Source: Gongronella butleri (taxonomy: Eukaryota; Mucoromycota; Mucoromycetes; Mucorales; Cunninghamellaceae). From it: a DNA stretch of 64,000 nucleotides. The translations under genes were made by a program, and so were the position numbers. The notes beneath the pieces are model-generated. The model saw only the letters and a list, made by a program, of their open reading frames with translations. It did no database searches and had not been told where the DNA came from. Position 1 is the stretch's first letter. The number at the start of each line of letters is the position of its first letter. Of the stretch, positions 1 through 63,770 are shown piece by piece. The stretch is from assembly GCA_025201375.1 (NCBI GenBank), contig JAIWZP010000043.1:1-64000 (forward strand). Reading direction: 5' to 3'.

Positions 1-1104
1 ACCTAAAATGAAAAAGGTTTGGAGTCGATCCAACCAATGTTTGTTTAATACAGTATTGGATTTGTAAAAATCTTTGAAAAAGGCCACGATTTCAAATTGT
101 CGACAACTCAGCCAGCCAGGTTGACCTCTGCTGATTTTTAATAATGATTTTGGAACAACACGCGCGGAAATTATCATTCAAATGGTACAGTACCAGCCCA
201 GCAGCCCTTGTTTTTGGCGTTTAAATTGAATTTGCATTTTGCAATATTTCGTCAAATTGGCGATTGCCTCGGCAACGGCGCCCAGATCAACCTCCGGTTT
301 GCAACTTTTTCCTGAAAAAAGAGGTGCGGATCGTCCATGTGGTAAGATTTCGCGGTGATTGAAGCACAAGAATTTCACTGCGAAATGATTTTTAAGAAAC
401 GCGCTACTGTATTGTACAGCCAAATTTTCAGCAATGCCAAGTTTCTCGTCGAGCCATCCGATTGATGTAGAAGTTTTACAGTAGTTATTTTCTGAAAAGA
501 TCCCATACTGTAGGTAGTACGACAGTGGCGATTGCGCGAAAGCGCGATTCAACCAATATCTGTGGAATGGTACTGTATGCTCATCATTGAACATTGATGA
601 ACCTTAGAAAACTCGTGATATTGGCACTTGTCTCGACAACAGTCTTATCGGCTTTTGATTACTCTAGGTACATGGTCAATTTTTTAATGAAGAGAGGCGT
701 CGAAATACTGTATCATGATCCAATGGCAAACTTAATATGATAATTTTGTGCGCGCTGTATGCGGCTTGATCAAGAATTCAAGATGATTAGGGCGAATCAC
801 ACTTTTGCTGCTGGCTCGATTGGTTGCTTCAAAGCACGTGTTCCCGATTTTTTTTTTTTTTACGCGTCTGTATGCAAGAACGAGGGAAATCCTCAGCAGT
901 TGTCCAAAACGGAATATCAAAAGATGATGGGCGGAAGCGATCGGTTTCATTTCAATCTTTTTACGGAACAAGCAGCCAATCAAAGTGTCTAATTGAGGGC
1001 AGCTGAGCAGTGCAAAGACACGCCTCTTTTCGATTTCTTTTTCTTTTTTTTCCATTCACGCCACACGGCAGTCTTGCTTGTCCTTTTATTTTGTGAATGC
1101 CGTC
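1..1104. other. gene-poor segment rich in TACTGTA/TACAGTA heptamers
   Basis: No supported gene. The segment holds seven TACTGTA/TACAGTA heptamers, at 49, 186, 405, 477, 506, 571 and 706, far above the chance rate of about one per 8 kb. A minus-strand open frame of 138 codons (178-594) has an ATG but shows no family motif and contains several of the heptamers, so I do not call it a gene. The last 100 bases are T-rich and probably form the leader of the bZIP gene that follows. Confidence 0.6.
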
Positions 1105-2454
1105 ATGTCGCAATCCGAGACCACGAAATCCACGACTTTCCGCCCCATTGTGCCGTCGCTTGCCCCGGCGAGCACTGGGCTGTGGCCCGGCAACAATGCT
1201 CTGCAAAGCAACCAAGAAAACTCGGTGCTCATAGCACCCAGACGTAAGAATTTGACTTTTTTTTTGCTCTTGTTTCGCTTTCTTTTGTCGCGCGTGTGTA
1301 TGAAAACTCATTCACTTGCTCTTGCCACACTGTAGATCGACTGAGTGGACCGCCCATTGGACCGCCAGGTAAGTGTATCTGCCAATTTGGAAGAGTGGAC
1401 TTGTTTTTAACTGACGGCTTCTTTTTCTTCTGCTTCTTTTCTCGCTTCAAGTCGACGGCAAGACAGGCAACTCGGTAAGACTTGGTTGGGAAATTCAGAT
1501 GTTGGCGTGCATGCGCCTCTGGCGGGGCGGGGGGGGGCTTTGCAGCAACTTGGCGCGGATGGCGTAAGAAAATCTGTGGGAAAATACGCTCAATTCTTTT
1601 TTTTTTTTTTTGGTCTTTTTTGCGTCCAGATGCTCGATCCACGTGCGCGACGAAAGGAGCAGAATCGACAAGCCCAGCGGCATTTTCGCGAGCGCAAGGA
1701 GCGGTATGTGAAAGAATTGGAGGATCAGATCAACCAGCTGAAACAGGAGCACGAAGCGGCGATAAAGCGCGTCACCGATGAGAATGCGCGTCTGCGCGCG
1801 CGCGTCGGTGCTCTGGAACGGCGCCTGCGCCAGGGCGGATTGGAAGCTGGCGTGGATGGCGACGACGAGGACACGCTGATGGAGGAACCCATGGATGGCG
1901 ACGCGGCGATGGGCGATGGGCCCACGTGCACGACCGCGGAAGAGTGTGTGCGCGACAAGGACGGAGTCTCGTTTTGTGCGCGGCTCAAGGACGAGGTGTG
2001 CTCGTCGGCGTATCAACAATTACTGTCTGAGCCGCTATTTGACGCGACAGGGTCGCTGGATACCACGGTCACAAGCCGCCCCGTGCCAATTGTCACCGAG
2101 AAGCTGCAAAAGAACACAAGGCGCACAAGCAGCACATCATCAACGTCGCTGTCGCCCGACCAAGTCGTCGACGACAACGATCCCGTGTCGTTCCTCGATC
2201 GCCTTGCACAAACGCTCGTCAAGGAGCAATTCGAGATGCCGCCGCACCCAGACACATTGGAGCCCGATGTGAAATTGATCTCGTGTTCAGAGGCATGGAA
2301 AATGCTCTCGACGCACCCGCGATTTGACACCATTGACAGCGACACTCTCGTGCGCAAGGTTCGCGGCATTGCCAAATGCTCCAATGACGGGCCCGTCTTC
2401 ACCGAGCATGAGTTGAAACAAGTGCTGCGCGACTTGGACAAGCGCGACGTTTAA
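1105..2454 (+). CDS. Yap1/Pap1-like bZIP transcription factor
   Basis: Exons: join(1105..1243, 1336..1368, 1452..1474, 1630..2454), 339 residues. The basic region after residue 70 contains NRQAQRHFRERK, the NxxAQxxFRxR signature of fungal Yap/Pap1 bZIPs, followed by leucine heptads (YVKELEDQINQLK onward). A cysteine cluster around residues 165-190 (TCTTAEEC, SFC, EVC) and a C-terminal region with SCSEAW and IAKCSNDGP match the layout of the n-CRD and c-CRD that sense peroxide and electrophiles in this family. The C-terminal part of c-CRDs also carries the nuclear export signal. The inferred role is a nuclear activator of oxidative-stress genes. Exons 2 and 3 are only 33 and 23 bases. The start is the first ATG that splices in frame into the bZIP. 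AATAAA overlaps the stop region near 2454. Product class is secure; the tiny exons rest on splice sites only. Confidence 0.88.
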
Positions 2455-4040
2455 ATAAATTAAAACGACAATATTGGATACCTTGCAAAAAAAAAAAAAA
2501 AATCTAGACTTGATGGCCATTGGGAGAGCCACGGGAAAGTCGAACGTGGCGCGAAGATTGGGAAAGTGGAGTTCACAAAAGTGGAAGCCCTTGGCGCTTC
2601 TTTTTTTATCGACAATGCAGCCGGTCGGGGGGGGGGAGACACACAACCATGGAAAAAAAAAAAAAGAGGGACCAAGGCAAAAAGTTAAAAAGAGACCCGT
2701 CAATCTGGCCATTGGGTCAAGATCATGCCATTGACGCCACTGATCCCTGACGCGATGATCATTGATTAGCAAATTGGGCTCCTCGCTCCCGTTGTTGCAG
2801 CATCCGTGTTTCCCACCGTCATCAGGAAAAAAAGGAACCCTCCCATTTTTCATCCAAAAAGGACAAAATTTGAAACCTTGAGAGCGTAAAAGAAAATGCG
2901 TGCGTTACTTGTGCGTGATTTTGCCGCGCCGCTAGTCCTTCTCCAGGCAGACACATGGGCATTTAAAAACAAGCTCCAGCGTGTAATTGGGTTGATTATA
3001 CCAATTTTGGGCATTTTATTTGGTTTTCCGCATCGCACTAGGACCAAATGGGGCGAGGCATGATGGATGTGTTGCCCCGCCATTGTTCAACATGGCCATC
3101 GTGCACCGTCTCAATCCTTTTGCTTGGCATTTCAAAACAGGGAATTGCCACCCATTGCTGACTTTTTCTCAAAGGATTTTGCTTACCTACACGCATGAGC
3201 ACCCCCCTCCCTTGTTACCCGTGCGGCGCCTCCCGTCCCCCCGCCGTTGTATTTTTAGCCCCCCGGAAAAATAAATGACGGGCGACACGGCAAGGGGGAC
3301 ACGTTGACAGAGTCGTGCATCGAAAAAAAAGAAGACGCCATCATGTCTCCTTATTTTTAGACTAAAGACAGTGTCCCTTGGCAATCCAGTGAACGGTCTG
3401 TTCGGAGCACGAGCAAGCGCTGAATCTGACTGGTTTGAAAAAAAGTGATGAGCGGACATGCCGCTCGCTGAATAGGATTAAAATGAAAACAGCTTAATGA
3501 CATGTTTGGATGCACGAGGCTTTTTCAAATGTGTAACGCATTGACAATTCAATCTTAATGATGATGCGTGGAGCTTGTGCGATGGGAAAGCGCGTTCGCT
3601 GGCTTATTTTTAGGCCGTGGTGTCTCTTCTTTTCTTCCATCGTGCTAAATATGAAGCACGGCGGCCAAGCTCGAGAGGGGGGTGGAAAAGGGGGGGGGAG
3701 GACATGCGAGAGCCACTAGGAGCTTTTGGGCAAACTCAACCTGCACTCAACCTAACAGGATTGGGTGATTGTGCAACGGCCAACAAAAATCGTCCAGAAT
3801 TTCAGGTACACAAAACGGACCATCAGCGGGGGTGGGGGGACCAAGACGGGAAAGAGAGCCTATAAAAGAGTCTCGACCATGCGAAATGACAAGATCCACC
3901 AACCCCCATTCTTTCTTTTTTTCCTTTTTTCTTTTACTTTTTTTTTTCTCTTCTTTTTTTTTTTATAAATATCACTCCATCCACGCTCTGACGCGTCTCC
4001 TTCCTTTTCCTCTTTACCAATTCCACTCGTTTCTACCACA
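2455..4040. other. intergenic region with homopolymer tracts and promoter of the next gene
   Basis: No gene supported. It holds A and T runs of up to about 15 bases, G/C runs near 2630 and 3690, and a TATA-like box at 3861 followed by a long pyrimidine tract (about 3905-3965) before the next ATG. Open frames here are low-complexity translations of homopolymers. Confidence 0.6.
3861..3867 (+). promoter_or_regulatory. TATA-box candidate upstream of the secreted glycoprotein gene
   Basis: TATAAAA lies 174 bases before the ATG at 4041, with a C/T-rich tract and a second AT-rich stretch between. The spacing leaves room for a short leader. Prediction only. Confidence 0.4.
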
Positions 4041-5238: not shown

Positions 5239-7685
5239 ATAAAATAGAAGAAAGCCGGCACATCTCGTGTTTGGTCCTCTTTTCTATGAACTATCAATAA
5301 AGATTTTTTTTCTTTTACACTTTTTTCTGTATATTTGAGCCACGTCAGGTCCTGCAGCAATGGGTGATTACGCTTTTTTTTTCGATTGTTTTGTCTGCTT
5401 TCACACCACTCAATTACTCATCCGTAGACCCCCCTTCCGGACGGAAAGAAAGTCTGTTGATTGCCCCCCTCCCCTTGATAACCCACAGCGCCGGCCAGAC
5501 GCTTCTTGATTTTCATACTTGCCCCCCCCCTTGTTTTACCCCTGATTTTCCTTGAATCTGATGATGAGATGCCACTTTAAGGCGTGAACACCTTTTTTTC
5601 TCAATGGGCCAGTCTAGAACGACATGGCGTACATGGATCATGAAGTTGACGCCCCCCTTTTTTTCTAAACACACTCATTTTCCCGTCCTTACGGCAAATT
5701 TACGTCAAATCCTGCTGACCTTTGAACAAAAGCTATAATATCAAGAAGTGCGCTTCTGGGACGACACTTTACCAAAGAAATTGATTCATAACGTGGGTGA
5801 GATGAGCGCGCTTGCTTTTTTTGACTTGGGTCTTTGCTCAATCGATCTTAGTTTGCAAACCTTTGCGAATTGGATTGGGATGCTGGGATGGGATGGAGGA
5901 AAGTGACCGAATCAAAAATCAGCGGCATGAATTGCCAGTCTAAAAATAGTAATTGGGAGATCGACAGCCTACAAGAAAGGGGGATTCAATTCTGCGCGTC
6001 ATCACGAGGCTTGAACCCACAATCTATTAAAGTTTTTTTCGTACAACGTACACGAATGTAAAGCACTGACTTTTTTTTTCTGTACACGAGCTGCAAAACG
6101 AGACAGTCGTAGGCCACTTTTTATCATGTCGCTACCCTAAAATGCGCATTATTCAGTTTACATGTTGCTGGCCATGGTCTCGGTAAAGATGAAGACGCCG
6201 TTTTTGTTTTGTTTGCGTGGACGACGCGTCGCCTCGTTCTAATGAGCCCACTCTCGAGGTTCTGCGATCACTAGATGGCGCGCAAAGTCGATTTTCGAAA
6301 ATGACGGATTTTCCAAGGGGCACAGTCGAGGATTTGAAAAGTGCCGAATTTAGGTCGTCAGATCGCCGCGCCAATCAGCCATATGATAAAGGACGCATTT
6401 TAACCGATGGTCACGTCATAAAAACCAGCGGTCCATTGACTGGTTTTCGCGTAAAACAAGAAACACTGTGATTTTTCACTTTTAGGCAAAGTCGCCGAAA
6501 AATATCTGTAGCATTGAGAAACGCGCACCACCTGAAAGAGAATGGCTCGCTGCGTACGTGGACATGGGTGATCTCTGAAAGATGTGATTTATTGACGTGT
6601 TTGACACGGTTTCAAAATCATATAAAATCTTCGACGCGTCAAAAAGCGCGTCACTCGTCGCGTGCCACGCGCCTGCTCCTAATCACATCCATACATCTGG
6701 GGCGTCTCTTGCCAACGGACGCGTCAGCGCGGCTCCACGGTCACGTTTTCTCGTGCAATTCACCTTTAAAATTTAATGCAAAATCGCACATTGCTCACTG
6801 CTCAGCAATTAGACCACCCTCTTTTTTCGCCATTTCCGTGGTTTCTCGCTGCTGAGCATCCTATGTGTACGTTTGACGCCATTCTGGGAACCCATGTTTA
6901 CCATTTTGGTTTTGAGGACTCGCCACGACGAAAATTTGATATTGCGTGTGGCGCGCGCAAATGGTGTCTGGCAGCTTGCAAACTGAGCGCGTCAGTTTTT
7001 CTGGCGTGCAATTCCACGTTGAGACGCGTTTCGGGGATTCAAAGGGCCAGGTTGGGTCACTTCCACCTTGATCTGTCGTTTATAATCACGTTTTGATCCG
7101 CCTCTCCTGCTCAACTTGAGCAAAAGCTTCGCTATTTGGACCAGTTGACACTGATGCAGGCGGAATAGCACTGCGCACCGTGAATGCAAATTGAATGAAC
7201 AATGTCTAGTGTGTTGGCCATTGAATGAATCTTATACTTCTTAAAACCGATTCACTCGGCATTGACCGGCTTGGACAAGCCCAAACTTGATGAAGGGGCA
7301 CGATTAATGTGCATGCACCGCTGGCCAGAAGTTGACAGTGATCGGATGCTTGGATCGCCAGCAATGGGTTGAATTGGTTCTTTTTGCCCATTTTTACGTA
7401 CCTCCCCCTTAGTTCAATGTTTGTCCCGGGTGGACAGATGGGATCAAAGGTCATTAACCTGCACTTTTCATTTCGTACTGTGCAACAAAGATCAACATTG
7501 ACTGGGCAGGATGGCCAATTTTGCAAAAAAATAAACTAAAATAAAAAAATTAAGTACATGATTTTGGTTGTCTGAAATTAGCGGGTTTTATTTTATTTTT
7601 TTCAAATGGGAGGGACAATAAATAAATGACAAAAGAAAGCAAGATTTGTTGTGTGTGTGAGTTTTTAAAAATGGTTGTGTTTGAT
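5239..7685. other. intergenic region containing repeat R1 copy A
   Basis: No gene supported. AATAAA just after 5238 and again near 5295 are poly(A) signal candidates for the glycoprotein gene. Repeat R1 copy A occupies about 6225-7060. A tRNA-like B-box on the minus strand near 6010 lacks a foldable cloverleaf. The right end (about 7530-7680) is A/T-rich with AATAAA on the minus strand and is the 3' flank of the HMG-CoA reductase gene. Confidence 0.6.
6225..7060 (+). repeat. dispersed repeat R1, copy A
   Basis: It aligns by eye along most of its length with 31385-32130 (opposite strand), 42430-43240 and, for its first 350 bases, 62655-63000. Shared landmarks in order: TCTAATGAGCCCACTC, GATGGCGCGCAA, TTTTCCAAGGGG, GAATGGCTCGCTG, CGCGTCAGCGCGGCTC and a GGTTTTGAGGACTCGCCAC-like right part. 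No terminal repeats or intact coding frame were found, so the class is unknown. Confidence 0.8.
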
Positions 7686-13288: not shown

Positions 13289-16200
13289 ATGGAACGTGAC
13301 AAGCTCTTTGAGGTGGACCCGTACGGTGTTGTTGCGGAGCAGCGTGACCATAGTCTGCTGTCGTCGTCCGACAGCCTGCCCACAACGTCACAGGCATCGT
13401 ATTCGCTGCCCGGGTCGCGGCGAAATTCGACGGATGCCGAGGACAGCTCGCTCATGGAGGCGTTTGATGTCAAGCTCAAGCTACAACCTCCCCAGCAGCA
13501 GCAAAATCAGCAGCATCAGCATCAGCAACAGCAACAGCAGCAAGAATTCGTTGCGCCGCATCGCTCCATGAGCGTTGATGAGACCGCCCTGAAACACAAA
13601 TTGCACATCGGCTCCAGCGCGGCAAACCCATCTGACAAGCAGCGCTTTTTATTTGACCATGATGCAGGTAAGGAAAGGGGGGCGAAAAGCAACCAACGGG
13701 CAGAAATGAAAAAGACCAAAACCTTTTTTTTTTTACACCTTCCCTCCTCCCCGCCCTGACCCGACATTTTTTTTTCATTTTCATCCACAGACCGAGCCCC
13801 GACGCGACAGCCGTACCTCAAGCGATATGGAGGATCGACCGAAACTCTGTCTTCCTTTGGTCATGGCGACTATAGTGGCTTTGTAAGTGGAAAGAATCAA
13901 AAAAAAAATTAAAAAAAGCAACGTGAAATGGAAAACAAGGGGAAAAAATGGACCACGCAAATTGGGGAAGGAGAGGGGAGGGAGAGGGAAAAGAAGGGGC
14001 GAGGAGAGTGGGTTGATCGATGAAAAAAAAAAAAAAAAAAAAAAAAGTGTTCATGCTGACGTCTCCTTTTTTTTTTTAATTTCCAGTTTACGCCGGCGCC
14101 CAATGATCATTTGGACATGGTGTCGTCTTTGCGCCGTAGTGCAAGTCGTCAAAACAAGAGCGTCGAGTCGCTGCGTAGCAAATCGTGGGCGCAATACCTT
14201 GAGAATTCTGCATCGCCGCCATTGATTGGTTTGCAGCAGGCGGCGTCCACGACCAATTCGCTCTTTGGCAATCAGCGGCGCTTTTCGTATGGGTGGCCGC
14301 CGCATTTGCAGCCGCCATTGCCTCCTCCTCCCCCTTCGTCCTCGGCCAAAGCCAATGCCATGTTGAATTCGTCGGCATCTGGGGCAACAACGCCCACGGC
14401 GGCCCACGCCGCACATGCTGCAGCCACGCGGTCGCCATCCATGATGGATCCGACCTTGTATCACGATTATTTGGCTGATCGACAGCATCGTTTAACGACG
14501 TCTCATTCGTATTCGGATTTGCACGCGACCGCCATGGCCCATTCGGCGGCGGCCACGCGGTCTGCATCCACCTGCACGGCCTCAATGCATCATCACCATC
14601 ATCAACATCACGCGCAACAAGGTCATCATCCGCACAATCAAGATGTCGCGTACACGACGCGTCCCTATCAACAGCAACAGGGTCGTTATGACGAATTGGC
14701 AAAGGATCCGTTGACCATTTGCCCCATTTTCCAGCAATATGGCATATGCGCCATGGAAGACAAATGTCCGTATATCCATGCAAGCCCGTCGCTCGCTCTT
14801 TCGAGCTTCAATTTGCCTCCGTCGCCTCATCCATTGTCCGTCGTGCCAACTAACTATCATCCGCACGCGCTTTCCCAGCAGCAGCAACAACAACAGCAGC
14901 AGCAGCAAGGTCAGCAGCAGCACCCGTCGCTCCTGTACAACTCGTCGTTCCCCGGTGGAAAGCTCGCGGCGTCTCGTTACACGCCTCCACCGTCTGCATC
15001 GTCGGTCGCCTCGGCGTGCCCCCCAGGCACACCTGCACCGCCGCCTCTGCCACCTTCTGCTGCCTCGACCACCATGCCCGGCCTCTTTGACAAGGAATTG
15101 GAGCGCTCCATGACACCGCGCCGCTCACTCGTCGATCCAGAGGCAAGCCGTTTCTCCGGCGCCAAACTCGAAGATTTCCAGGGCAAACTGTACGATTTGT
15201 GCAAGGATCACAATGGATGCCGCTTTTTGCAAAAGAAGCTTGAGGATCCCAATGGACAATACCTGCAGACCATCTTTGACGAAATACATCCCCATTTTGT
15301 GGAATTGATGACCGGTAAAGCGCCCAAGGACGAGAGAAAAAATACAGGGGTGAAAAATCATGCACGTTGCATCTCAAAAAAAGGGGGGGTGGGGCTCAAG
15401 TGACAAGACATACACACAAACACACACACACACACACACAAAAAAAAAAAAAAAGACGAGTGCGCGCATCAACAACAACCGAGGAGCAGCGGGAGAGGGT
15501 GGAAAAGATCAAAAAGGAGAATGGGCTGGACAAAAACATAAAAAAAAAAAGGAGGATGGGCGCGCAGGTGCGAGCAACAATGCAGGTTACCAGGGAATAA
15601 ACATGCATTGGCAAAAAAAAAAAAAAAAAAGAGGGAGAAACGGGGCGGCGCCCACGCCTACAGTATTGGACGACGCCTCATTTACGCTTATTTTATAGAC
15701 CCCTTTGGCAATTATCTCTGTCAAAAGCTTGTGGAACGATGCAATGATGTGCAACGAACAGCCATTGTGGACATCATTGCGCCCCATTTGTTGCAAATCT
15801 GCCTTAGCATGCACGGAACACGCGCGATCCAAAAGCTCATCGAGTTTCTGTCGTCGTCGCATCAGATAAAATCGGTGACCAATGCGCTGCGTCCCAACGT
15901 GGTGGCCCTGATCAAGGACCTGAATGGCAACCATGTGATCCAAAAGTGCCTCAACAGGCTGTCTGCTGAGCACAACCAATTCATCTACGACATTGTCAGC
16001 GACAATTGCATCGAAGTCTCCACGCACCGCCATGGCTGCTGCGTCCTGCAGCGCTGCATTGATCACGCTGTCGAGACACAAAAGGTAAAGCTTGTTTGGG
16101 AAAAAACGCGCAGCGTCTGGCCTCACGCTGATTTTTGCTTTGTTTTTCCCCCCTTTCAGAATCAATTGGTGCAAGTGGTCACCCATCACGCGCTTCCACT

Positions 16201-19209: not shown

Positions 19210-20230
19210 TTTAGCTCAGTGTAGTGTACAGAATCTGACGCGCATCATTGTCGCTTCGAACTATGGAGCAGCGCGCTACAAGTAGACAAAAAAGTACAGA
19301 TGATGTACCTTTTAAACACCAAAAAAGAGCGTGTTTTCAGACTTTGCCGGCCTGCTGCGCTTCCAGAAATTTTTTTACTGTACAACCTCCCTGCCCGCAA
19401 GTGAAACACGCGTCACGGCACGAACGACGGCCCAATGCCTGCGGCCAGTTCGCCCGATTTTTTTTGGACCCGAAAATGCCAAAACTCTCCTATTATGCTA
19501 TTTTGCATTCATCTCGCCATCTGCATGGTCGACCCCGCTCAAAAAGAGCTGCATCGCTTTCAGCACAAAATTTGCAACAAAAAAGCTTAAACCCCCGAAG
19601 CGCTACGACCACTTTTGAAAATTCAGGGGTCACTCAGGGGTCACACTTTTCAATCTCAGAAAATGCCTAATTTGAGAAATTTCGGACTCCGAATGATCAA
19701 TGCATCCCGAACAGGTAACTCTGACCATTTTCTATTGGCAGATAAAATGGCAGATCGCCCCAACTTCAGAAAAAAGCCCAAAGAGTGACGCATGAACGGC
19801 GATCGACTGAGAAAAGTGCCTACTTTGGTGCGAACTTTTTGCAAAATTTTAAGGTTTGACACTTTCAAATTAAGGTGGTGGATTGCATGGAATTTTTAAT
19901 TTTTTTAATTTTTTTATTTTTTATTTTGCACTTGTTACAGTATTGTGCGCTGAGTGGGCTGCTGTCTGGTGAAATGACCGATGCAAAAAGTCAAACCCCA
20001 AGCCAGCGAACTGCAAGTTATCCCATTAGATGCTTTGTCCCCCTGTTTGTTAGTAAAACTGCAATAAAGATCGGGGGTCGACTAGACCGTTGTCGAGAAA
20101 TTGCAATCAAAGAATTTGATGAAAAGTGGATTTTCTCTGCGAGTTTTAGCCATCCTTCTGTGAAACTGGTCTCATTCGATAGAGATTCAATAGATGCCTT
20201 CGACACGTTACGTAAAAGCACCGCGTGTCG
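19210..20230 (+). repeat. dispersed repeat R2, copy 1 (solo)
   Basis: It aligns by eye with 51120-51840 and 54090-55300. Shared landmarks: GACTTTGCCGGCCTGCTG, TTTGCAACAAAAAAGCTTAAA, AGGGGTCACAC, TGATCAATGCATCCC, AGAGTGACGCATGAACGGCG, AAATTAAGGTGGTG, then GATGCAAAAAGT and GAAAAGTGGATTTTCTCTGC. Unlike the other two copies, this one is not next to the duplicated unknown gene. Confidence 0.82.
20018..20221 (-). pseudogene. possible decayed DDE transposase fragment in R2 copy 1
   Basis: The minus frame reads SIESLSNETSFTEG, then about 30 residues on SRPPIFIAVLLTNRG. The same frame recurs in R2 copy 3 (SVESLPTETSSF ... SQPPIFISVLLNNKQG). The order acidic-ET-S-F, basic stretch, then a beta-strand-like IFIAVL resembles the second-aspartate region of Tc1/mariner-IS630 transposases, where DET(S/G)F is followed by a strand about 30 residues later. 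The first aspartate appears as N or T here, so any enzyme would be dead. Identity is tentative. Confidence 0.25.
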
Positions 20231-22384
20231 TCAAATCAATTGTACTGTACGCACGTTGATTTTACAGTGGGTACTGTACCTACGTGCGTACTGTATGTAT
20301 GATGACGCGTCTACTATCTTTCCTTTTCTTTTTTTGCTTTACAATCTTCAAAATCTTTTCCTTTGGCTTGCTTCCAAGACCCTGGCCACTGCTTGTTTGT
20401 CGCCTTGATTGTATTATCACCATGCTGAAAATGGCGTCAGCTAGCGCTCTCGCGAAATCGACGCTGAGACTCTGCGCTTTGATGGGCGACACTCTTTGAA
20501 GTGCGTGCCACGGTACGGGTCTTGAAGGACGCGGCGCTCGCTAGGGCGATAATCAGGGCGGCTTGTACTGTATTGGGAGGGGGTGGTCGTCTCCGCGAAA
20601 AATAAAATGAAATAAAAAACAAAAGACGACGGGAGTAGGATTAAAAACGGTCTGGACCTTTATTTCAGCTACAGTACGAGGATGAAAGGGCTATTTATAC
20701 AGATTGCTAGAAAACGAGGCGCGGCTATGGTTCATGACGATCGCGCTCTTTTCTCGCGCCCTTGTCATCTTTAATATGTCCATTTTCATTTCGGCCTTAC
20801 TCTGAACGGCCAAGTGTCCTGTCGTGACACGCTTAAGCTTTGAGCGGGCCAACGTGTCACAGAAAGACAGAATTCCATTGTGCCACGGCATTGAGCATGA
20901 CAGCCCGCGACGCATTTCATTTTTTTTTTTGCTTTGCTTGGCCTATCACCAAAAAGGGCCAAGCACTCTTTTGAATTGTCATTTACGATTTGTCATTCTT
21001 TCATTTTTTGAATCTAAAGATATTTCTCGGCGAACATGTCCGCGCACACAAAGGGCATCGTTGCGCGGTCATTCGTTTCTTATGGTCTATGTTCAGGGCT
21101 GCATGACACAGCGATGGTGCTGTCGCATTGAGCGGAATTGTCGGTGATCCGAAATGACGGCATGACATCATTTCCATATCGGTCCCTTGGCGTCCGACCA
21201 CAATTCCATTTTTTTTATTTGCTGCCATCATCCGCTTGTGTCCCTGCCTAAGCCGGATCTGTGATGCATTGGCACTTGCAGCTGGCTGTGCTGCTAAGTC
21301 CATTTGACCAAGCAATGGCTGTGTGCTTGGGAGCCTGCCTCGAATTGCCAAAACCCGCATTGAGTGTTTTTATGCATTTGTTCACTTTTTGCACCAATTG
21401 GTCTATTTCAGTGCTTGCGCCGCAGCTGGCGCGACCAATGCGTGTCAATCTGGCGTTTGGCACCACGCGGCTCATGGCTTCTTGCAACTGCTGGAATTGC
21501 GGCTACAACAGCAATTGCCTGCCGAATTCAAGCGATCCTTGATCGACGTACTAGCCAGCAGGTGTGAATGAAAAGGACAAATGATAGGACTAAAGGTAGA
21601 CTGTAAGCTTTGTAAATAAGTGAGACAAAAGGATGGGTTTTAATCTGAAAACAGAGTGAAAATAAAGAAAAAGGAAAAGGGGAAATCTAAACAAGCAAGG
21701 TGGGATTTTAAAGGCGAAAAAATGGGTGTGTGGCAGATTCACCGGCCGACACCGGACTCTCAGCTCGGTCTGAGCTCAAGCGCTAGGCACGTTGGTGCGG
21801 CGCCCTGTCTACAATGCACACAATGTCTCAATGTGCATTGACGCACCTAGCGCCCCACTCAATTATTTATTGGCGTGCCCGGCTGATTGAGCTCATTGTT
21901 CACGTTGTTCACATAGGCTTTTACAGTATGTCAAAAGTGAGAGAGAGAGAGAGAAAAGAAAGGGAAAATAGAGGGGAAAGAGACGTTTAAATAGGCTATG
22001 GAAATAGGCTATATACTGTATGAGGGAATGAGGCGAATTAGATGTCAGGCATCACACGTCAGAGCGTGGTGTGTGCAACTGAGCTTAAATGTAGGTCTGA
22101 TCTGCTGCGCATCATCCAGATCAATGCCAAATTTGACACCAGGCGTACGTCAGATCAAGCGCTCCCTCGCGATCGTCACCCTCTTCTTCCTCCGGGAAAA
22201 ATAGAATTTGCCGTATGTCTTGAGCTGACTGCTGACTTGGCCAGTTTTTTGGATCTCGAGCTTGCCAGAAACTTTTTCCTGCATTCCTGGCATGTTGCGG
22301 CGATATGAAACAATGAAAGGTGTTTTACTGTACCTTCACTGTATAGATACCGTAATCAAGGGCGCAGAATAATCGAATGGCAAT

Positions 22385-22706
22385 GTCAAATTTTATTTTG
22401 ATTTGATGGATTTCGAGAAATTGATGAGTTTGCGTTGGTCATCTAAAATTCACCCAGTCAACAACATCAACATGATTTACAGTATTTAGAGACAAAAACG
22501 CGATTTACGCGGTATCCTACTAATATCATAATGAAACCGGTCCTGATATTTTCCGTCGCATGCTGAAATAGAATCAAATTCTGCATCCGATTTGCGATTT
22601 GAGCATTTTTTTGAGGGACCCATCTTCCCTACTGTATGACCAAACGGAAAAAATGCGGCAAAGTCATCAATTTCTCGAAATCCATCAAATCAAAATAAAA
22701 TTTTGA
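22385..22706. repeat. fold-back or MITE-like element with 38-base perfect inverted repeats
   Basis: Bases 22390-22427 are the exact reverse complement of 22664-22701 (38 of 38), and the match extends a few bases outward with one gap. The 236-base interior has no coding frame and carries TACAGTA at 22478 and TACTGTA at 22630. No clear target-site duplication was seen. Size and arms fit a MITE or a hairpin-forming transcript. Confidence 0.75.
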
Positions 22707-23651
22707 GCATTGAGCAATGCGCCATTACAGGATTTGTTGAAAAACAAGTGGATTATTTTATTTTCTCTGTCAGTTTTGGTCGTTCACGGTGAAACTTGTT
22801 TCATCCATAGAGACGGTGAGGCGCAAGAGCTGGTTTTGACACGTTATCATACTGTATGATAAGAGCGTCGTGGCTCGGGGATCGTCCTACTGTAAAACAT
22901 GTACGTATGTGTTGCACTTGGAGCTGCAAACGTTCATCAGTTTGATTGGCGTTTGGGCGAACTTTCATATCAGTTTGAAGTTACTGACTACTGTATCGGC
23001 ATAGTGTAAGGCGTTTTTTAGCAGGGACGTGTCAGCTATCATACGTAAATTTGGCTGATGAGTCATTTGAAAGAAATTTCTGCTTCTTTTATTGTCGATG
23101 CACGCCGTGGCTGCTCTTGTGCTCTGTCCGTTTTCCGAGCAAAACGTGTTTTGAAAATCAAAACGCATTTTATATATTAAATGGCTTTCTCGTTGGGGAC
23201 TCTCGTCAAAATGGCAGAAGAGGAGAAGATACCGCGCGGCCCACTGTCCGCCCAGATTCAGTCTCATTACTCTCATAGTCGCGTGCATTCAAAAAAAAAA
23301 AAAATAGAGCATGTGGGACCAAATGAACAAAACACGTCTGTATATCATTTTTTATTGCTACATCGACATTGAAAGAGGCTGATTTTTTTTTCATACAAAG
23401 AGGGGGATGGGGGACACGCAGGTAGGCGCCGGCGTGAGTGACAACAAAGAAAATAGAGGGATGGGGGAAAAAAATAACGAAAAAAAGAAAAAAGACGGCT
23501 AGACAAAGTGAAAAAAGACTATGTAGGGGAGTTGAGTGACCAAAAGTTGGAGTAGAGAGAGTGAGAGAGTAGGGTTGACGGACGGGGGATGGGGGGGGGG
23601 GGAAGGGGGCTAAAGAAAAGGGAATCGACTATTTGCAACGCGATTTTGGGT

Positions 23652-45866: not shown

Positions 45867-45906
<40 letters not shown>

Positions 45907-50475: not shown

Positions 50476-52050
50476 TTTGATTGCAATTAAAGAAAGAAGA
50501 GTTGCGTACAAGTACGACGAATATTTGATGGTAAAAATGAACAGTGTGCCCCGCCCTACCCGCACCGTGTCTTTCAGCAGCGAGAACACGAAGAATCACC
50601 TGTGTCGCGCAGCATCCATTCCACCGTGTAACGTTCTTTTGTTCCAAGCCCCGAAAACCGGAACACGCGTCCGAAAAAAAAAAAAGAACACCATCAAAGA
50701 ATGCGTTTTTGATCATTTACAGGGTTTTCTCATTAGATTTTTCCCCTTGATTGCGCGCCACACAGCACGGAGCGCATTCTCTGGTCCATTGTCCCTAATT
50801 TCGAGATTCCGCGGCGCTTTCTAACAAAAATCATATGATATCATATCATATGATGGCTTTTGCGACGTAACATTTTCGATTTTTTGGCCGTTTCTCGTTT
50901 GTATGACTGATTGACTGTACTCTTGTCATTTCGCGAATAGACACGCACTATCGCGTCTTTTTGCTTTTTTAGCCATCAACTACGTGGCCAACGGCATGCT
51001 GGGTGCAAGTGGATGCGTTTGACATGCTTTGGAGCGCGACTCAAATAGACTGAATCCTCATTTTTTTCCATTCTTCGTGTTTTGTGCTTTTGTCCGAGCA
51101 TTTTTAAGCTCCCGAACCGAGGTGTACTTTGGACAGAATCTGGCACGCGACCGAGCGCTATTGTCACCTCTTCGTTGATGCACGTACCTATCAGGGAGCA
51201 CAAAGCCAGGCACTGCTATAGATGTGGTACCAGTGCAGTGCGCGCCATCATGGGGTCATGCAACTTTGCAACAGAATCACGTTACAGCATGATATCATAA
51301 TCAACATAAAAATCACGTTATTTTATATTGAAAAATGAAAAACAAATATAAAAACCGTGTTTTTTAGGTTTTGCCGGTTTGTTGTGTCTCCAGAATTTTT
51401 TTTACAGCCTACAGCACTTGCCCGCAAATTAAATACGCGTCACGGCATAAACCACGGCCCAGTACTCTAAATGGACCCGCCCGATCTTTTTTTTTTTGGA
51501 CTCGAAAATGCCAAAAACCTCAAGTTTGTGCTATTTTGAATTCACCTCGCCATATGCTTGGTTGACCCCGCTCAAAAATAGCCGCGTCGCATTCGGCGCA
51601 AAATTTGCAACAAAAAAGCTTAAAGCCTCAAAGCGCTGCGACCACTTTTTAAAAATCCAGGGGTATTTCAGGGGTCACACGTCCAAATTTGGGAAATTTC
51701 GCAGGAGTGATCAACGCATCTCAAATAGATAACTCCGACAATTTGCTATTGGCAGAGGTTGGCACACAAAATGGCAGCAAAAACCCACAACTTACGAAAA
51801 ATGGCGTCCACAGAAGGAAGAGAGCCACATATGCCCATTTGACCACCCTCAGCGGCGCCAGAATCGTGTTTCGTTGGTACCCGTCTGATACCGGCATCCT
51901 CCTGCCGAGATCACCTGGAGCACATAACTTCCTTGCTTATAAAAAAAAAAGGCGTGCAAAAGCCAAATTCTTCTTCAAATCATTAATCATATCTTTTACG
52001 GGCGAGACTGGTCGCGTTTCAAAGCGACGCGCCCACTTTTATTTCACGCT
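50476..52050. other. spacer between the paralogues, with R2 copy 2
   Basis: It contains the conserved upstream region of paralogue 1, the near-palindrome of TCATATGATATCATATCATA at about 50830, R2 copy 2 (about 51120-51840) and the 3' flank of paralogue 2. No gene seen. Confidence 0.6.
51120..51840 (+). repeat. dispersed repeat R2, copy 2
   Basis: It matches copies 1 and 3 from GGACAGAATCTGG through TTTGCAACAAAAAAGCTTAAA and GTGATCAACGCATC to about 51840, where unit B begins. The right half of R2 (transposase-like part) is missing here, so the junction truncates the repeat. Confidence 0.8.
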
Positions 52051-54890
52051 TTATTTTTTGAATCCCTGCACCACTTGAATAATGCCGGTGAATGAGACAA
52101 CGAGAGCTGCAACGGTCACCAGCACGGCAAAGGCGTCGCGTGTAAGACTTCTGACGAAATCGTGCTTGATCCTCTGATGCCAGCTGTAAAACTTGCGACT
52201 CAGCATGGCGAACTCGTATCCGACCTCGCTGGCTACCTCGTCAAAGCAGCTCATTTGCCGATAAAAATATAAAATCCTCTCAAATTCGAGATAGTTGTCA
52301 TAATCTGTGACACCCAACTCGACTGCCAATTTGAATGATTCTGGTGTGGCAAGCAAGCCATCGACAATGCGCAGCATGTCATTAATCGGGCATGGCGGCC
52401 CCTGATCCGTTTTTTGACAAAGCCGCAACATCACGCACATGCGTGAGCGTGACAACTCGGGCATGATGATAAGATGGCCCCTGACTAGAAAAGAACCGCC
52501 AATCTGCACGGAATACCCCTTTTCTTTTAGCTCTTGCAATGTGACCATACGTTCGGGAAACTTGACATTGTATTGTTTTGCTTGGCCATAGATCGAAAAT
52601 CCAATGGTTTCGGCAATTGTCCTTGTCATATCGATCTCCTGATCGAGCGTGTAAGGCATGATTTTGCCTAGCAAGGCATAGGCTATCAGGTTGCACAGAG
52701 CAATGGGCTGCACGACATTACCCTTTCGCCAAATTTGCACCAAACGAACATCCTGATCTGTCCAATTCTTCCACGCTGAAAATCCGTCTTGGTCATGCAA
52801 GCCCTGCATGTATTCTGCAATGGCTGTCTTGTTTGCAAAAAAGTCCAAATGATTGAAGCCGGCACAAACGAAGAATAGCGCGTTTTGCTGGAATCCAATG
52901 GTGGACAGAATGCCACTCACAGCGGTGACGACCTTTGCTTGCGAATTAGCACGTCGCACGTCGCCAAGATAGCGTTCCAATGCAGATTGCTCATTGTCTT
53001 CAAAGATAAACTCAAGATCTGCTAGTCGTGTCGCCAAGAGCCCGCAATTGAAGAGGTAAAACATGCCGCCCAATGACTGTTCACTGACAATGATACCCTT
53101 GAGATATTGCACGGCGCCAACGATCTCTTGCAATGTCACTTTGCCATGATGGCGCGACCGAAAGGCGCGCTCACCTTTTTCGTCAGAGGATGATGATCCC
53201 ATGGTGGACGCGCTGCTCGCATCGTCGTTGTCAGCATCGACACGTGAGAATGTCTGCAGCGTCTTCCAATCACGCTCAGCGGATGGCGCATCCGATGAGG
53301 GCGTGAGAGCCACATCCGCGATGAGCACGGATTTTGGAGTGATTACCGTCAGGTCCACGTCCTTGAGCATCTCAATCATCTTTCCAACCGTTTTTCGGTC
53401 AAAAATCGTGGAATCGTGCCAGCCTGGGAAGAGGAGACGGAAGCCACGCTGCTGGTTGGGCGAAAGCAATGCAGGATCAAAGAGGCACGAGGGATCGATC
53501 AAGCCATGACCCTTGTGGGTCGCATCCGAATTGAGAACTTTGTTGGGCATTGTGATTGCAATCAAAAAAAAAAGAAGAGTTGCATACAAGGACGGTGCGT
53601 ATTTGAGAAAAAAAAAAAAAAGAGCCGAGGGTCCCCACTACCACCCACCGTGTCGTACAACACCCAGAACACCGAGAACACGAGGAATCCTGTGTTGCGC
53701 AGCACCCATCCCACCGTGTAACGTTCTTTTGCTGCTATCATATTCAAGCCCCAGAACACGCGTCCGAAAAGAAAAAAAGAACACCATCAAAGAACGTGTT
53801 TTTGATCATTTGTAGGTCTTTCTCGTTAAATGCTTCCCCTTGGCTGCGCACGACACAGCATGGAGCGCATTCCCTGGTCCACGTTTGTCCCTTGTTTCGA
53901 GGTTTCACGCATTCACGGCGATTTCTAACAAAGGCTAGCTCTTGCGAAACCACATTTTCGATTTTTTGGTCGTTTGCATGACTTTTGATGACTGTACTAC
54001 TGTATTCAAATCTGGTGCTGTGTCCCAGCATTTTTAAGATCCTCGTAGCTCGAACCGTAGAGTGTGGACGATTGGACTCTGCACTCTGCACTCTGGACAG
54101 AACCTGGCGCACGCTGTCATATCTTCACCTCTTCGATGCATATCAAGATATCATACAGTATTGCATGATGCATGTGGGCATTAGGGAGCAGGCACCAGGC
54201 ACCAGCGTAGTACGCGCCTTCATGCAACTTTGCAGAATCGCAACAGAAGCACGCTACAGATTTAGCGCGACACTGCACAAAAACTTGCGCACTTATCTTT
54301 TAAACACCAAAAAAGCATGCTTTTCAGACTTTGCCGGCCTGCTGTGCCTCCAGAAATTTTTTTTACAGCCAACTTGCCCGCAAATGAAAAACGTGTCGCG
54401 ACGTCAACTATAGCCCACTGCTCAAGATGGGCGCGCCCGATTTTTTTCGGGCTCGTAAATACTGTACCAAAAACTTCATATTTGTATTATTTTGCATTCA
54501 TCTCGCCATCTGCACGGTTGACCCTGTTCAAAAAGACCTGCATCGCATTCAACGCGAAATTTGCAACAAAAAAGCTTAAATCACCAAAGTGCTACAACCA
54601 CTTTTGAAAAATTCACGGGTCACTCATCAGGGGTCACACATTTCAATCTCAAAACATGCCAAAATTGGGAAATTTCGAACTCCGAGTGATCAATGCATCC
54701 CAAACAGGTAACTCCGACGATTTGCTGTTGGCACACAAAATGACAGAAACCCCCAGCTTAAGAAAAATTAATGTCCAAAGAGTGACGCATGAATGGCGAT
54801 CGGCTGGGGAAAGTGCCTGTTTTGGTTCGAATTTTTTTTGCAAAAGCTTAAGGTTTGAGACTTCCAAATTAAGGTGGTGCATAAATTGCA
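51885..54890. repeat. tandem duplication unit B (3.0 kb)
   Basis: Direct repeat of unit A with the same internal order: 3' flank, unknown gene, upstream region, R2. Its R2 continues beyond the unit A homology to about 55300, so unit B is the longer and probably more ancestral end. Confidence 0.88.
52051..53550 (-). CDS. unknown intronless protein with C-terminal membrane tail, paralogue 2
   Basis: 499 residues from the ATG at 53550 (MPNKVLNSDATHKGHG). It is very similar to paralogue 1 along the whole length, with changes spread through the sequence, including two residue gaps (for example AVELGVTDYDNYLEFERILY against AVELGFTDYDDYIEFQTILL). The C-terminal anchor AFAVLVTVAALVVSFTGIIQ and VVQGFKK are identical. 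Both copies keep full open frames, so neither is an obvious pseudogene. The DNA differences are scattered but the frame is preserved, which suggests selection on the protein; this needs a codon-based test. Function unknown. Confidence 0.75.
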   Translation of the reverse strand: MPNKVLNSDATHKGHGLIDPSCLFDPALLSPNQQRGFRLLFPGWHDSTIFDRKTVGKMIEMLKDVDLTVITPKSVLIADVALTPSSDAPSAERDWKTLQTFSRVDADNDDASSASTMGSSSSDEKGERAFRSRHHGKVTLQEIVGAVQYLKGIIVSEQSLGGMFYLFNCGLLATRLADLEFIFEDNEQSALERYLGDVRRANSQAKVVTAVSGILSTIGFQQNALFFVCAGFNHLDFFANKTAIAEYMQGLHDQDGFSAWKNWTDQDVRLVQIWRKGNVVQPIALCNLIAYALLGKIMPYTLDQEIDMTRTIAETIGFSIYGQAKQYNVKFPERMVTLQELKEKGYSVQIGGSFLVRGHLIIMPELSRSRMCVMLRLCQKTDQGPPCPINDMLRIVDGLLATPESFKLAVELGVTDYDNYLEFERILYFYRQMSCFDEVASEVGYEFAMLSRKFYSWHQRIKHDFVRSLTRDAFAVLVTVAALVVSFTGIIQVVQGFKK

Positions 54891-55300
54891 TAATTTTTAC
54901 AGTATTACAGTATCATACGGTACAGTACATCATTTCATACTGTAATTTTTTGATTTTTTATTTTGCACATTTTTGTGTGGTGGCCTGGTGGGTGGTGGGC
55001 TGCCACTCGCAGACGTGCAGAAATAACCGATGCAAAAAGTTCAAACCCAAGCTAGCGTGCTGAAAGTCATCCCATTAGATGCTTTGCTCCCCTGTTTGTT
55101 ATTTAGTAAAACTGAAATAAAAATCGGGGGTTGACTACTGGACGGTTGTCGGGCAAATCGCCCGATTAAATACTGTAACGGTATTTTGATGAAAAGTGGA
55201 TTTTCTCTGCGAGTTTTAGCAATCCGTCGATGAAAACTGCTGGTCTCAGTCGGTAGAGATTCAACAGATACTTTCGAGTTCGACATGTCAAAAGCGCCAT
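54090..55300 (+). repeat. dispersed repeat R2, copy 3
   Basis: The longest R2 copy. It shares all R2 landmarks with copy 1, including the right part (GATGCAAAAAGTTCAAACCC, GAAAAGTGGATTTTCTCTGC). Relative to the other copies it carries extra TACTGTA at 54460 and several heptamers between 54898 and 54944. Confidence 0.82.
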
Positions 55301-55415
55301 GTGACATCCAATCAGTTGCCGAGAAGAACATCGAGGTTGAAATTTTTTGTAACGTTTGACCAGCTTTGTCAAGCCTACAAAGGTCACGTACCGGTATCAT
55401 CGGGCAAACAAACAT
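55041..55415 (-). pseudogene. possible decayed DDE transposase fragment in R2 copy 3
   Basis: The minus frame is open for 124 codons. It contains SVESLPTETSSFHRR, then SQPPIFISVLLNNKQG, paralleling the frame in R2 copy 1. Upstream in the same frame LDKAGQTLQKIST and MFFSATDWMS could be the linker before the first catalytic strand of a Tc1/mariner-like enzyme. Key acidic residues are missing or displaced. This is a weak call based on two diverged copies. Confidence 0.25.
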
Positions 55416-57387
55416 TCTGGAAACGACAGTATTGTTCTACAGTATTGTACGACACCACCCGACGTGTCTTTTTTGAATGGTGCAAATTTCATCCCGATCC
55501 ACGAAATATTTCGCGAGCCACTGCTGAATGTTGTATTTGCTGCTTGCAGAGCGTGATCTCATTAAGTAAAAATCACAATGGACACCTCCATGTGAAAGAG
55601 AATGTCTGCGATTACCCTAAGTCAGACGCGCTGGTCGTGTCTGGACTTGTATTTCACAAGTTGTGTAAAAAAGAAAAGAAAAAAAGAAAAAAAGCAAACG
55701 CGATGTAAATCGCGTTGTGCATTCTCAGTGCCGCATCCCTGGATTCAAATCCAGATGGCCGGGCACTTACTTAGTCCGGCTAATCAAGCCCCGCTCACAC
55801 AATGGCTGCTGTCGCCAGGTCTTTACGTTTTAATCGCGATTTTACCATACATGAAAGGATAGCGCAACCTTTCCCTCATTTGCTCTCTTGTACGCACCCT
55901 TGCTAAGATGCCTTATTCGCTATGTATGATCAGAGATTGCATCGACCAGGATCTGGGCAGATGCAAGCCTGAGAAAAAAAAATAATAATAATAAAAAATC
56001 TCATTTGCTTGCGATCACACAATGCCCCACTTGGCCATACGCGTCTTTACGCGCCCATGTGCATTCACGCCACGGAACCATCATCTCTGGATCATTTGCA
56101 TATCCGAGGAACAGCTCAATCGCTGATTGAGCGCGGCTCACATTCAATTCATGCCTCGGAACGCTTGTATGCATGACAGCCACTCATTGAAGCATTTCTT
56201 TGCATCTTACATCCTAAACCCCAGTTTTTACAAATTGTCTATATAATAGAGTCTTTACTTTTTCTTAATTAATAAACCGTATCAGATTCTCAATATCTCA
56301 CTGAAATTGTGAAAATGTCGATATTTTGGATTCATTTGGACAACGACGCAGTCGACCTTGATTTTTAACGTCTTTTTGAGACGAGACGCATCGAAATACA
56401 GTACTACAACGCTGAAACCTGGAAGTTTTCAGCGACCTGCTGATCGAGTGGCAAGCTGGCAACTGGTAAATTTCATCATACTGTATCGTCGGAATCTCGG
56501 ATAAGAGCAATACTGTAGATACTGTAGGCGCAAATAATACGTGGATGACAATGGTCATTGAAAAAATAAGTTTTAGTTGAATGAGCTATTGTATGATACT
56601 GTATGAGCACGTCTGCACTCTGCAGCTCTGCACGAGAAAGAAATGGTGGGGCCGACGCCTCATTTTCGATCCATGGAAACCATGATGGATTGGCGATTCG
56701 CGTCACGTCCGTGGTACGCGCGTAAAAGAAGAGAAAACTAGCCTAAACCGCGTATCGTGACATGCCCCTCCTCGGCAATCCGCGGCTCAGAGTGCACAGC
56801 GTGCTGGGTTCCTGCGTGTTTGAACGCTTTTTTTTCACAGCTGAAGCATGTCCAACAAAGAAAAGATAGAAAAATTGTATCTGATGCGTGATCTCATCGC
56901 TCAGCAGTGTGCGAGGTGATACAGGACGCGTTTCTGTTGCAAGCCAAGCCAAGCCAGGTACAGGAACACGGATGGCACGGGCCAAAATGCATTGGAAAGT
57001 CTGGCTGGTGCATGGCAATTCCCGCACGCGGGGTTTTTGCTGCAAGCCGGCGATGGCATCCGTTTTTTTTTTTTAGGGGGGCGCAAGGCACTTTTGGCCG
57101 CTTTTTTTTATTGTGTTGCGTCATTCACTTCCTTGTGCGTACTGGCGCGCATAAAAGTGGCACCTGAGCAGCCAAAGATTGAGAAGCAAGCATCAAATGG
57201 TCAATTGATCAAGTGTTGCTCAGAGTGGCGGTGATTGGGCCGGATGGCTCGGCGCCGGCGGAAGTGGAGGGGCCCAGGAGGGCACAAAAAGGGCCGCCTG
57301 TACCTTGTTTTTCTTTTTCTCTCTCTTTTTCTCCTCTATCTTTGCATTTCCCTCCTCTCTTTCTTTCACTCCCCTACTCTTTTCACC

Positions 57388-58291: not shown

Positions 58292-58324
<33 letters not shown>

Positions 58325-61882: not shown

Positions 61883-62654
61883 TAGAATCGATTGACAGCA
61901 TTGAAAAACTACTTTTATTTGCTGGATTTTGAGAAATGTCTGATCTTGCCGCTTTTTTTTTTCTGCATAGTCAAAAACGGCCGAGTCACGCAAGACATAC
62001 GGGCAAATTCTAGGATGGGCTCACTCCTCCGTCCTCCCGGGCTCTCGTATATTTCAAAAACACATCGAATGCTCATAGAATGTCCATCAAGGCTAAAATT
62101 GCAATGTTTCAACTTTTGCTTGCCGCGCCACGGTGTTAAAATAAAAACGGCTGAATTTGGCCCTCAAAAACTCATAGAATGTCCATTGAAGGTGGGTTTA
62201 GAATGCTCGTCTAAACTCTCAAAGCAATCAAGCGCCTTCTCGCTCTATGAATGACATTGGCTAAATTTGCTTTTTATTGTCGCCTCTTGGGTAACCATTT
62301 GCCTCGTCACATGTTAGCGCATGCGCCGGATGCTCTTTTTTCACGTTGCCTACTTGATAAACGCTCAAAGATCACAAATCCGACCGCTCTGGCGCCGGTA
62401 ACGTTGAATCATTGCGCTTTAATGCTAAAATTGCTTTTACTTTTATTTCCCAGTCCTGCTACTGTATGATATCATACCGCATCCAACGTGCTCCAAGGCG
62501 TACTAAGAATCTGATGACCGCATGTTGTGCCAATTAGAGATGGCGATCAGGTATGAGCGTGTCGTGAGCGTCATGACTTGACCCTTTTTACTGTGTTTTT
62601 GGCCATTGGTCAATCAAATGACAACCAGCGATGAAATTCAATCGTTGGGCCATC

Positions 62655-63000
62655 AATTCCGAGCCCTCTCGTTCTAATAAGCCTATATTTTCAGCATTGC
62701 AACCACTGGATGACTTACAATGACATTTTTCAAAAATCACTGATTTTCCAAGGCGTAGAGTCGATGGCATAAACATCGTCATCAGATCACCTTACCATCC
62801 ACACACAACATCAACCACGCTTGTTCACCGATAAAAAAAAAAAAGAAATAATAAAAACGCGACGTCTATTAACAGGTATTGGCGAACAAAGCGTTTAAGG
62901 CCAAGTTTTCAACACGAGGCTATTGTATCTCGACCAAAATTGGTCGAGCGCCCTTAAAGGCATCTCATCGGAAAGAGCACGACCCGATGCATTCGTTTTG
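62655..63000 (+). repeat. dispersed repeat R1, copy D (partial, diverged)
   Basis: It matches the left 350 bases of R1: CTCGTTCTAATAAGCC, CACTGGATGAC, TTTTCCAAGGCGTAGAGTCG, CATCAGATCACC, ACCAAAATTGGTCG and ATCGGAAAGAGCACG. The right half is missing. Confidence 0.65.
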
Positions 63001-63770
63001 ATTGATGATCGCTTGTAGTAGTCGAGTTTTGGCAACCCCGGCATGAGGGTTGTGTTCGGCAGCATTTGTGGATACGTGATGAGTCGCGCTACATAGATCG
63101 TGGCCGCCGTCTTCCTGCATCGATCAGGTGCATGTGGACCGTGCCTTCTTGGCGTCGGCGAGCTGTGCGGTTGTAGGTACAGTAGTTAAAAAAAAGATGC
63201 CGCAGGTGGTAACGTATTCAAAAATCGCAAAATATAGCATGCTGCAATTTGTGGACGACTTTACATTGCATATTAGTGCTTACAGATCATCGTTTTTGTG
63301 GAATGAGATGAATTGATCAAATTGTCAGTGTCGACAGGGTTCGATTTACTGGCAAACAGCTCTGCATCGAGTCTTGTTCATCCTTTCCGTTCATTTTTTC
63401 TTTACATTCGCAACCGGACCTCCGATTCTGCTCCAAATAGTACCAAATGTCACACATTCGCTTATTATTGCCATCAATAACAAGCAAAACGTGTTTTCCA
63501 AGCCCAATGACCTGTGATTGCAGGGAAAGGCAAAATTGAAAACCTTTGCAAAAGTGTGCCTGTACCTTCCTTTTTAGGCAAGTCGACGCGACTCTCTTTG
63601 AGAGGAAATTGCTTGCTGGGGTCTCGGACCTCCAAATTTTGGCCCTAAATTTTAGCAAAACGCGTGTTGGACTCGTGTGCATCAAGTTGAATGCTTAAAA
63701 TACGTAAAACTCTCGAAAAAATATTTTTAGAAGGCCTGTAGAGAATGGGCCGATTTCCCTTTCATTAAAT

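Follow-up and report, generated by a model that had tools for sequence, protein, structure and literature searches.

The window analysed here comprises 64,000 nucleotides at the start of contig 49 (JAIWZP010000043.1, positions 1 to 64,000) of the Gongronella butleri assembly GCA_025201375.1 (33.0 Mb, 110 contigs), and is rich in the heptamers TACTGTA and TACAGTA (together TACWGTA). As judged by sequence comparison, these heptamers are almost certainly scars left by the excision of Tc1-group transposons, cut-and-paste elements that target TA. At most sites that can be compared within the genome, the heptamer is a plain TA in another copy of the surrounding repeat, with a gap of exactly 5 base pairs (bp). 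A first-pass annotation of the window had read TACWGTA as Tc1-family scars; a second class of words, TATCATA/TATGATA (TATSATA), a weak third class, TACCGTA/TACGGTA (TACSGTA), and chains of words that share a TA go beyond that annotation.

Exact copies of TACWGTA in the window numbered 39 (24 TACTGTA and 15 TACAGTA) and lie where they were first annotated, with seven in 49-712, one at 15659, 15 in 19376-22995, 14 in 53998-56603, and one each at 62460 and 63178. Shuffling of the window 100 times with preservation of dinucleotides gave a mean of 1.20 and a maximum of 5 copies. Counted on both strands of the window, the single-base variants were close to background, at 4 for TACSGTA and 0–9 for each of 18 others. 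A 264-kb sample was composed of the window and 20 ten-kb pieces from contig 1; as 12 of these pieces were placed to cover clusters or the start of the contig and the other 8 were not, densities in the sample do not represent genome averages. The sample contains 209 TACWGTA against 7.8 expected from an order-2 model, and the whole genome 16,213 (8,154 and 8,059 by strand), of which a background of ~1,000, scaled from the sample model, would be expected. Thus, the genome-wide count, proposed as a check in the first-pass annotation together with control heptamers, is far above expectation, and neither the single-base variants nor other TANNNTA words are equally enriched. One-base relatives are in excess for TACAGTA (315 against 249 expected, +66) and not for TATCATA (396 against 409), which roughly indicates little decay in most of the scars.

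A dispersed repeat of ~1 kb, with diverged copies in several gene-poor blocks, made an empty-site test possible within one genome. Each word was compared with every alignable copy (at least 68% identity over at least 60 bp) in its filled and its TA-collapsed version, with 22-bp flanks. For TACWGTA, 24 of the 25 sites with a usable copy were plain TA in at least one copy with the exact 5-bp gap, including sites 405, 19376, 19936 and 54460 of the window, and the copy pairs were scored as empty (77), same (6), diverged (2) or ambiguous (10). TATSATA was empty in another copy at 13 of 19 sites (42 pairs empty, 15 same, 0 diverged and 13 ambiguous), and TACSGTA at one of two (1, 0, 3 and 1 pairs, respectively). 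Since a single locus, repeated in tandem in L012, contributes three of the TACWGTA and three of the TATSATA sites, the independent ratios are ~22/23 and ~11/17, respectively. Control words were seldom empty, namely 2/41 for other TANNNTA, 0/8 for ATGWCAT, 4/345 for CANNNCA, 4/330 for TGNNNTG, and, in two frames that can overlap real scars, 9/278 for ATNNNAT and 9/147 for GTNNNGT. In two element copies that are 98.6% identical (L033 and L039), one end contains TACAGTA in one copy and TA in the other. Among unique insertions between dispersed copies, a scar was carried by 40 of 63 with a length of 5 bp, as compared with 7 of 61 with 4 bp and 7 of 33 with 6 bp. The change from TA to TACWGTA by an exact 5-bp insertion, found at 24/25 sites against 2/41 for other TANNNTA words, agrees with the scar reading of the first-pass annotation. 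Its further argument, that the flanks differ from site to site and the words are not the ends of one repeat, was borne out in that the immediate flanks do vary, although three blocks (19.26-20.24, 51.35-51.80 and 54.27-55.54 kb) each consist of a diverged copy of a single dispersed repeat. The flank pattern around scars derives in part from chained neighbours and is weak around single scars.

When all TA-NNN-TA words in the sample were compared, remnants of 3 nucleotides flanked by TA on both sides stood out for CAG/CTG and TCA/TGA. The TCA/TGA words (TATSATA) are strongly enriched (133 against 12.6 expected from the order-2 model), and the CCG/CGG words (TACSGTA) weakly (31 against 8.9); apart from the TAA/TTA words considered below, all the rest were less than 3-fold over the model. 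A scan of the 15 other dinucleotide frames revealed only words overlapping scars, homopolymers and values of no more than 3.4. Genome-wide, TATSATA occurs 9,529 times (4,788 TATCATA and 4,741 in the other orientation) against 543 and 488 for the reversed string, i.e. ~9-fold, with an expected background of ~1,600 as scaled from the sample model. The form TACCGGTA was counted 20 times on both strands of the sample (10 places) against 1.4 expected, and may be a further kind of scar from the CCG family.

The words are further joined into chains by shared TAs, and CAG, CTG, TCA and TGA occur in all ten strand-collapsed pairings in the sample, where palindromic pairings were counted on both strands and their raw numbers are therefore twice the number of places. 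The two-scar chains TACWGTACWGTA and TATSATATSATA are present at 1,613 and 639 places genome-wide, with 12 and 1 for their reversed controls, respectively, and the mixed two-scar chain TACWGTATSATA at 2,274 (1,121 + 1,153), with 2 + 2 for the control. Among the 298 scar runs in the sample, 246 have one unit, 35 have two, 12 three, 4 four and 1 five. Six chains lie in the window, and four of these have at least three units. In 25 fields chosen for density, 230 scar runs were found for 895 collapsed TAs (26%, an upper bound given the selection), and 20% of the runs have at least two units. With these proportions, independent repeat hits suffice for the chains, and a preference of the elements for existing scars is not needed.

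The first-pass annotation had suggested that the source element is not itself present in the window. No TA-CAG...CTG-TA element was found in the window, and such elements with a DD34E transposase are present elsewhere in the genome. The DDE_3 profile gave 74 genome matches in several groups of equal score. One element, (a), has the ends TA-CAGTGCCCGGACAAA (also given as TACAGTGCCCGGACAAA), for which 65 + 65 exact matches and none for the control were obtained, corresponding to ~65 copies; none of the ends listed is on contig 49. From 98 of the first 100 ends listed, 49 facing pairs were formed, eight spanning 1,337-1,338 bp, all of which (8/8) contain a DDE_3 match, and 41 spanning 1,008-1,015 bp. 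The copy at C39:80925-82262 (1,338 bp, TA-CAGTG ends) has 32 identical terminal bases including TA and is located between a TACGG scar and a CAGTA scar; another copy, in C58, adjoins a five-scar chain. The 341-residue frame of the C39 copy matched PF13358 (DDE_3) and PF01498 (a Tc3-type helix-turn-helix) above the cut-off, and D146, D243 and E278 were assigned by motif as the catalytic residues, the last two being 34 residues apart (DD34E). Of the solved structures, the best match was Sleeping Beauty SB100X (E = 2.9e-29), followed by Tc3 (E = 0.002). The closest proteins listed are metagenome transposases (69% over the full length or 85% over 80% of it), and the best named fungus among the matches listed is Parasitella (43%). 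At one end, two copies of element (a) are identical over the ~330 bases compared, which is no more than a hint of recent movement. A back-to-back pair of CAGTG-family elements at C28:216696-217704 and 217703-219040 has one TA in common.

Element (b), located in L012:6703-8336 (1,634 bp), is CCG-ended, with TA-CCGTGGCTC termini and a 339-residue DD34E frame. Thus, a TA-flanked element tip equal to the scar remnant was found for both the CAG/CTG and the CCG class. TA-CTG ends, (c), which would leave the same scar word as CAG tips, are present on DDE_3 elements in L033, L034 and L039-L045, at one end only, and as a facing pair 5.3 kb apart at C54:14101-19408. The 5.3-kb element has 11 exact ends in the genome, too few for a main source on its own. 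A 632-bp stretch in L039, (d), has TACAGAGTTTCC ends that agree in 22 of 26 terminal bases. The PF03184 (DDE_1) profile gave three genome matches, all with stop codons, and Pfam Transposase_1 gave none, a result that is uninformative, as the controls were silent as well. A long tandem array of 195-bp units was noticed in L010 and L011.

The proposed mechanism is as follows. An element with CAG (or CTG) ends reading inward from TA would insert at a TA and duplicate it. Excision by the transposase with ends staggered by 3 nucleotides, and joining of these ends, would leave TA + CAG or CTG + TA, so that the site is 5 bp longer than before the visit. TATSATA would come from a second family, and TACSGTA from a third, CCG-ended one; for the TCA class, the word itself, its chains and its empty sites point to the same geometry. 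Since each scar has two TAs, it could be visited again, by its own family or by a different one, and so grow into a TA-NNN-TA-NNN-TA chain. Scars would be expected to accumulate between genes, where five added bases should do little harm. The first-pass annotation had proposed a comparison of exons, introns and intergenic DNA, for which long open reading frames (ORFs) served as no more than an approximation of coding sequence; in these, scars were indeed rare, with one per 1,019 TAs in ORFs of at least 300 residues (341 per 7,292 outside) and 13 per 1,825 TAs in those of at least 200 residues (329 per 6,486 outside). The assignment of site 15659 to a PUF intron also holds in so far as the site looks intronic: an ATAG|ACC junction follows directly after it, with a PUF-coding stretch, identified by PUF profile matches, on either side.

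The scar words and repeat copies of the window are as follows (strand is given where assigned).
49..742: scar field at the contig start; TACWGTA at 49, 186, 405, 477, 506, 571 and 706, TATGATA at 736
6382..6388: isolated TATGATA; some isolated words may be due to chance
15659..15665, minus strand: single TACWGTA in the likely PUF intron; chance is possible, with ~1 expected per window
19264..20242: copy of the dispersed repeat used in the empty-site test
19376..20676: scar field; TACWGTA at 19376, 19936, 20243, 20272, 20289, 20566 and 20670
21922..23043: scar field; TACWGTA at 21922, 22014, 22326, 22478, 22630, 22850, 22888 and 22989, TATSATA at 22524, 22845, 22855 and 23037, TACCGTA at 22348
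22845..22861: three-scar chain TA-TCA-TA-CTG-TA-TGA-TA
50834..50850: three-scar chain TA-TGA-TA-TCA-TA-TCA-TA
51350..51802: shorter copy of the same dispersed repeat as 19264..20242
53736..56603: scar field; 14 TACWGTA (53998 to 56597), TATSATA at 53736, 54149, 54911 and 56592, TACGGTA at 54916
54149..54160: two-scar chain TA-TCA-TA-CAG-TA
54270..55539: copy of the same dispersed repeat as 19264..20242
54906..54927: four-scar chain TA-CAG-TA-TCA-TA-CGG-TA-CAG-TA, in which each of the three classes is represented
56592..56603: two-scar chain TA-TGA-TA-CTG-TA
62460..62476: three-scar chain TA-CTG-TA-TGA-TA-TCA-TA
63178..63184, minus strand: single TACWGTA
51293 and 58562 (TATSATA), 17553 and 31960 (TACGGTA): further isolated words, some perhaps due to chance

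Several observations weigh against the interpretation as scars. The reversed-string control ATGTCAT is common in the genome (3,179 + 3,176), which reduces the excess of TACTGTA to 2.6-fold; the separation of TACWGTA is clearer by single-base variants, other TANNNTA words and chains than by the reversed string. A usable paralogous copy was available at only 25 of the TACWGTA sites examined, three of them being the tandem copies of one locus, and TATSATA was filled in the other copy more often than TACWGTA (15 same against 42 empty pairs). A scar is also frequent in insertions with lengths of 8, 9 and 13 bp (10/23, 9/15 and 10/13, respectively), for which there is no explanation, and the TAA/TTA words are mildly enriched in the sample (23 against 5.2) with no known element. 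Inverted-end scans of the 264-kb sample and the fetched DDE_3 loci for a TCA/TGA-tipped element revealed nothing convincing.

The last point, together with the lower empty fraction (13/19), would be accounted for if only TACWGTA were scars and TATSATA had another origin. This is nevertheless improbable, as TATSATA shows the same exact 5-bp empty sites, exceeds its reversed control 9-fold and is chained with CAG words at 2,274 places against 4 for the reversed string. A palindromic site in intergenic clusters, bound by a chromatin protein or a transcription factor, would explain the concentration of TACWGTA in gene-poor blocks and its rarity in long ORFs, and a bZIP (PAP1-like) gene stands beside the first scar field. 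Such a site predicts neither an exact 5-bp insertion at TA (24/25) nor a second, unrelated TA-NNN-TA word and shared-TA chains of the two classes, and the one-base variants are near background; hence this explanation is very improbable.

Still less credit can be given to the two remaining explanations. Diverged copies of one repeat are present in the gene-poor blocks, and the words could be a part of this old repeat; yet the sample contains a copy of the surrounding stretch for just 21 of the 60 scar words of the window, and where copies exist, one has the word and others a gap of exactly 5 bp (77 empty pairs against 6 same), which leaves this origin with hardly any probability. Both words and chains might be products of slippage at a short tandem unit, either TACAG or TATCA, and runs do reach five units. 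However, 246 of 298 runs are a single unit, single insertions at a plain TA are the rule, and the free mixing of CAG, CTG, TCA, TGA and CGG in chains is not expected from copying of one unit, so that slippage is extremely improbable as well. Excision of Tc1-group elements therefore remains the preferred explanation of the words.

A much bolder proposition is that the genome is a near-saturated log of excision, in which chains record repeat visits by at least three families and excision is largely uncoupled from reinsertion. It is considered unlikely. In this view, scars numbering tens of thousands as compared with few resident copies would point to such uncoupling, perhaps through timed bursts of transposase activity that recall ciliate DNA elimination, with unusually uniform end joining.

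The activity of DNA transposons is usually gauged from surviving copies, whereas here the scar words outnumber the counted copies by more than 100:1, a ratio based on one element family, to which other CAG- or CTG-tipped families will have added scars. As scars can be found by a plain word search, the insertion-excision traffic, repair outcome and target choice would become measurable in one assembly, with shared-TA chains as a record of several visits per site. Scars of 5 bp shift frames and spacing and would thus be a source of mutation invisible to ordinary repeat annotation. The TA-NNN-TA count is directly applicable to other Mucorales genomes.

Other features were noted in passing. The scar clusters on contig 1 have an apparently regular spacing. 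A 46-bp inverted repeat (22388-22433 and 22658-22703, 98% complementary, 224 bases between) is located inside the scar field 21922..23043. The tandem pair 48795-50921 and 51869-53998 is 83.5% identical, and each member has an open frame of ~530 residues with no Pfam match; its comparison for empty sites, including that at the chain 50834..50850, gave none that was clean. A second dispersed family of ~0.73 kb (6233-6965, 31379-32128 and 42424-43149; 68-78% identity) lies outside the scar fields. A Cyc8/Ssn6-like frame at 23654-26111 has its best match in Hesseltinella vesiculosa (60% identity over half of the frame), and other Mucorales make up most of the next matches. Also enriched are ACGCGTC/GACGCGT, with 60 occurrences in the window, and the palindrome GACGCGTC, with 36 when both strands are counted; both include ACGCGT, the MluI cell-cycle box of fungi.

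Both this type of footprint and repeat visits to one site are already known (PMC4378557; PMC1925063). A literature search of incomplete coverage, with most subscription journals outside it, gave no report of a scar-dense genome or of mixed-family scar chains. Tc1/mariner is the largest transposon group in the Mucorales genomes studied, with more than 200 copies in each, and footprints are not mentioned in the main text of that study (PMC7928374); in another fungal paper, footprints of DNA transposons are described as almost undetectable (PMC10691877). Gains and losses of Stowaway, a Tc1/mariner miniature inverted-repeat transposable element, in a grass beta-amylase intron include repeat visits to one site, but concern a single locus across species with variable footprints (PMC1925063), whereas uniform triplets occur genome-wide in G. 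butleri. A comparison of two rice genomes likewise provided a genome-scale view of DNA transposon excision, Mariner elements included; there, 8 of 94 excisions left exactly two target copies and most were accompanied by deletions or filler (PMC4423477), while in G. butleri one simple 5-bp product dominates the visible outcomes.

The closest likeness is to Sleeping Beauty, whose consensus footprints are TACAGTA and TACTGTA (PMC4378557), and whose first nick is 3 nucleotides inside the element, with the 3-nucleotide overhang left as the footprint upon end joining (PMC7827188). The two words and the TA target are the same, 3-nucleotide overhangs sealed by end joining would be common to both (PMC4378557, PMC7827188), and the data for the CAG and CCG classes fit the Sleeping Beauty cut geometry; SB100X is also the solved protein nearest to the 341-residue transposase. 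However, in those studies the element is an engineered one, with ~100-200 candidate footprints per tumour (PMC4378557, PMC7827188), whereas the G. butleri genome has thousands of natural scars, which are chained and include further triplet classes.

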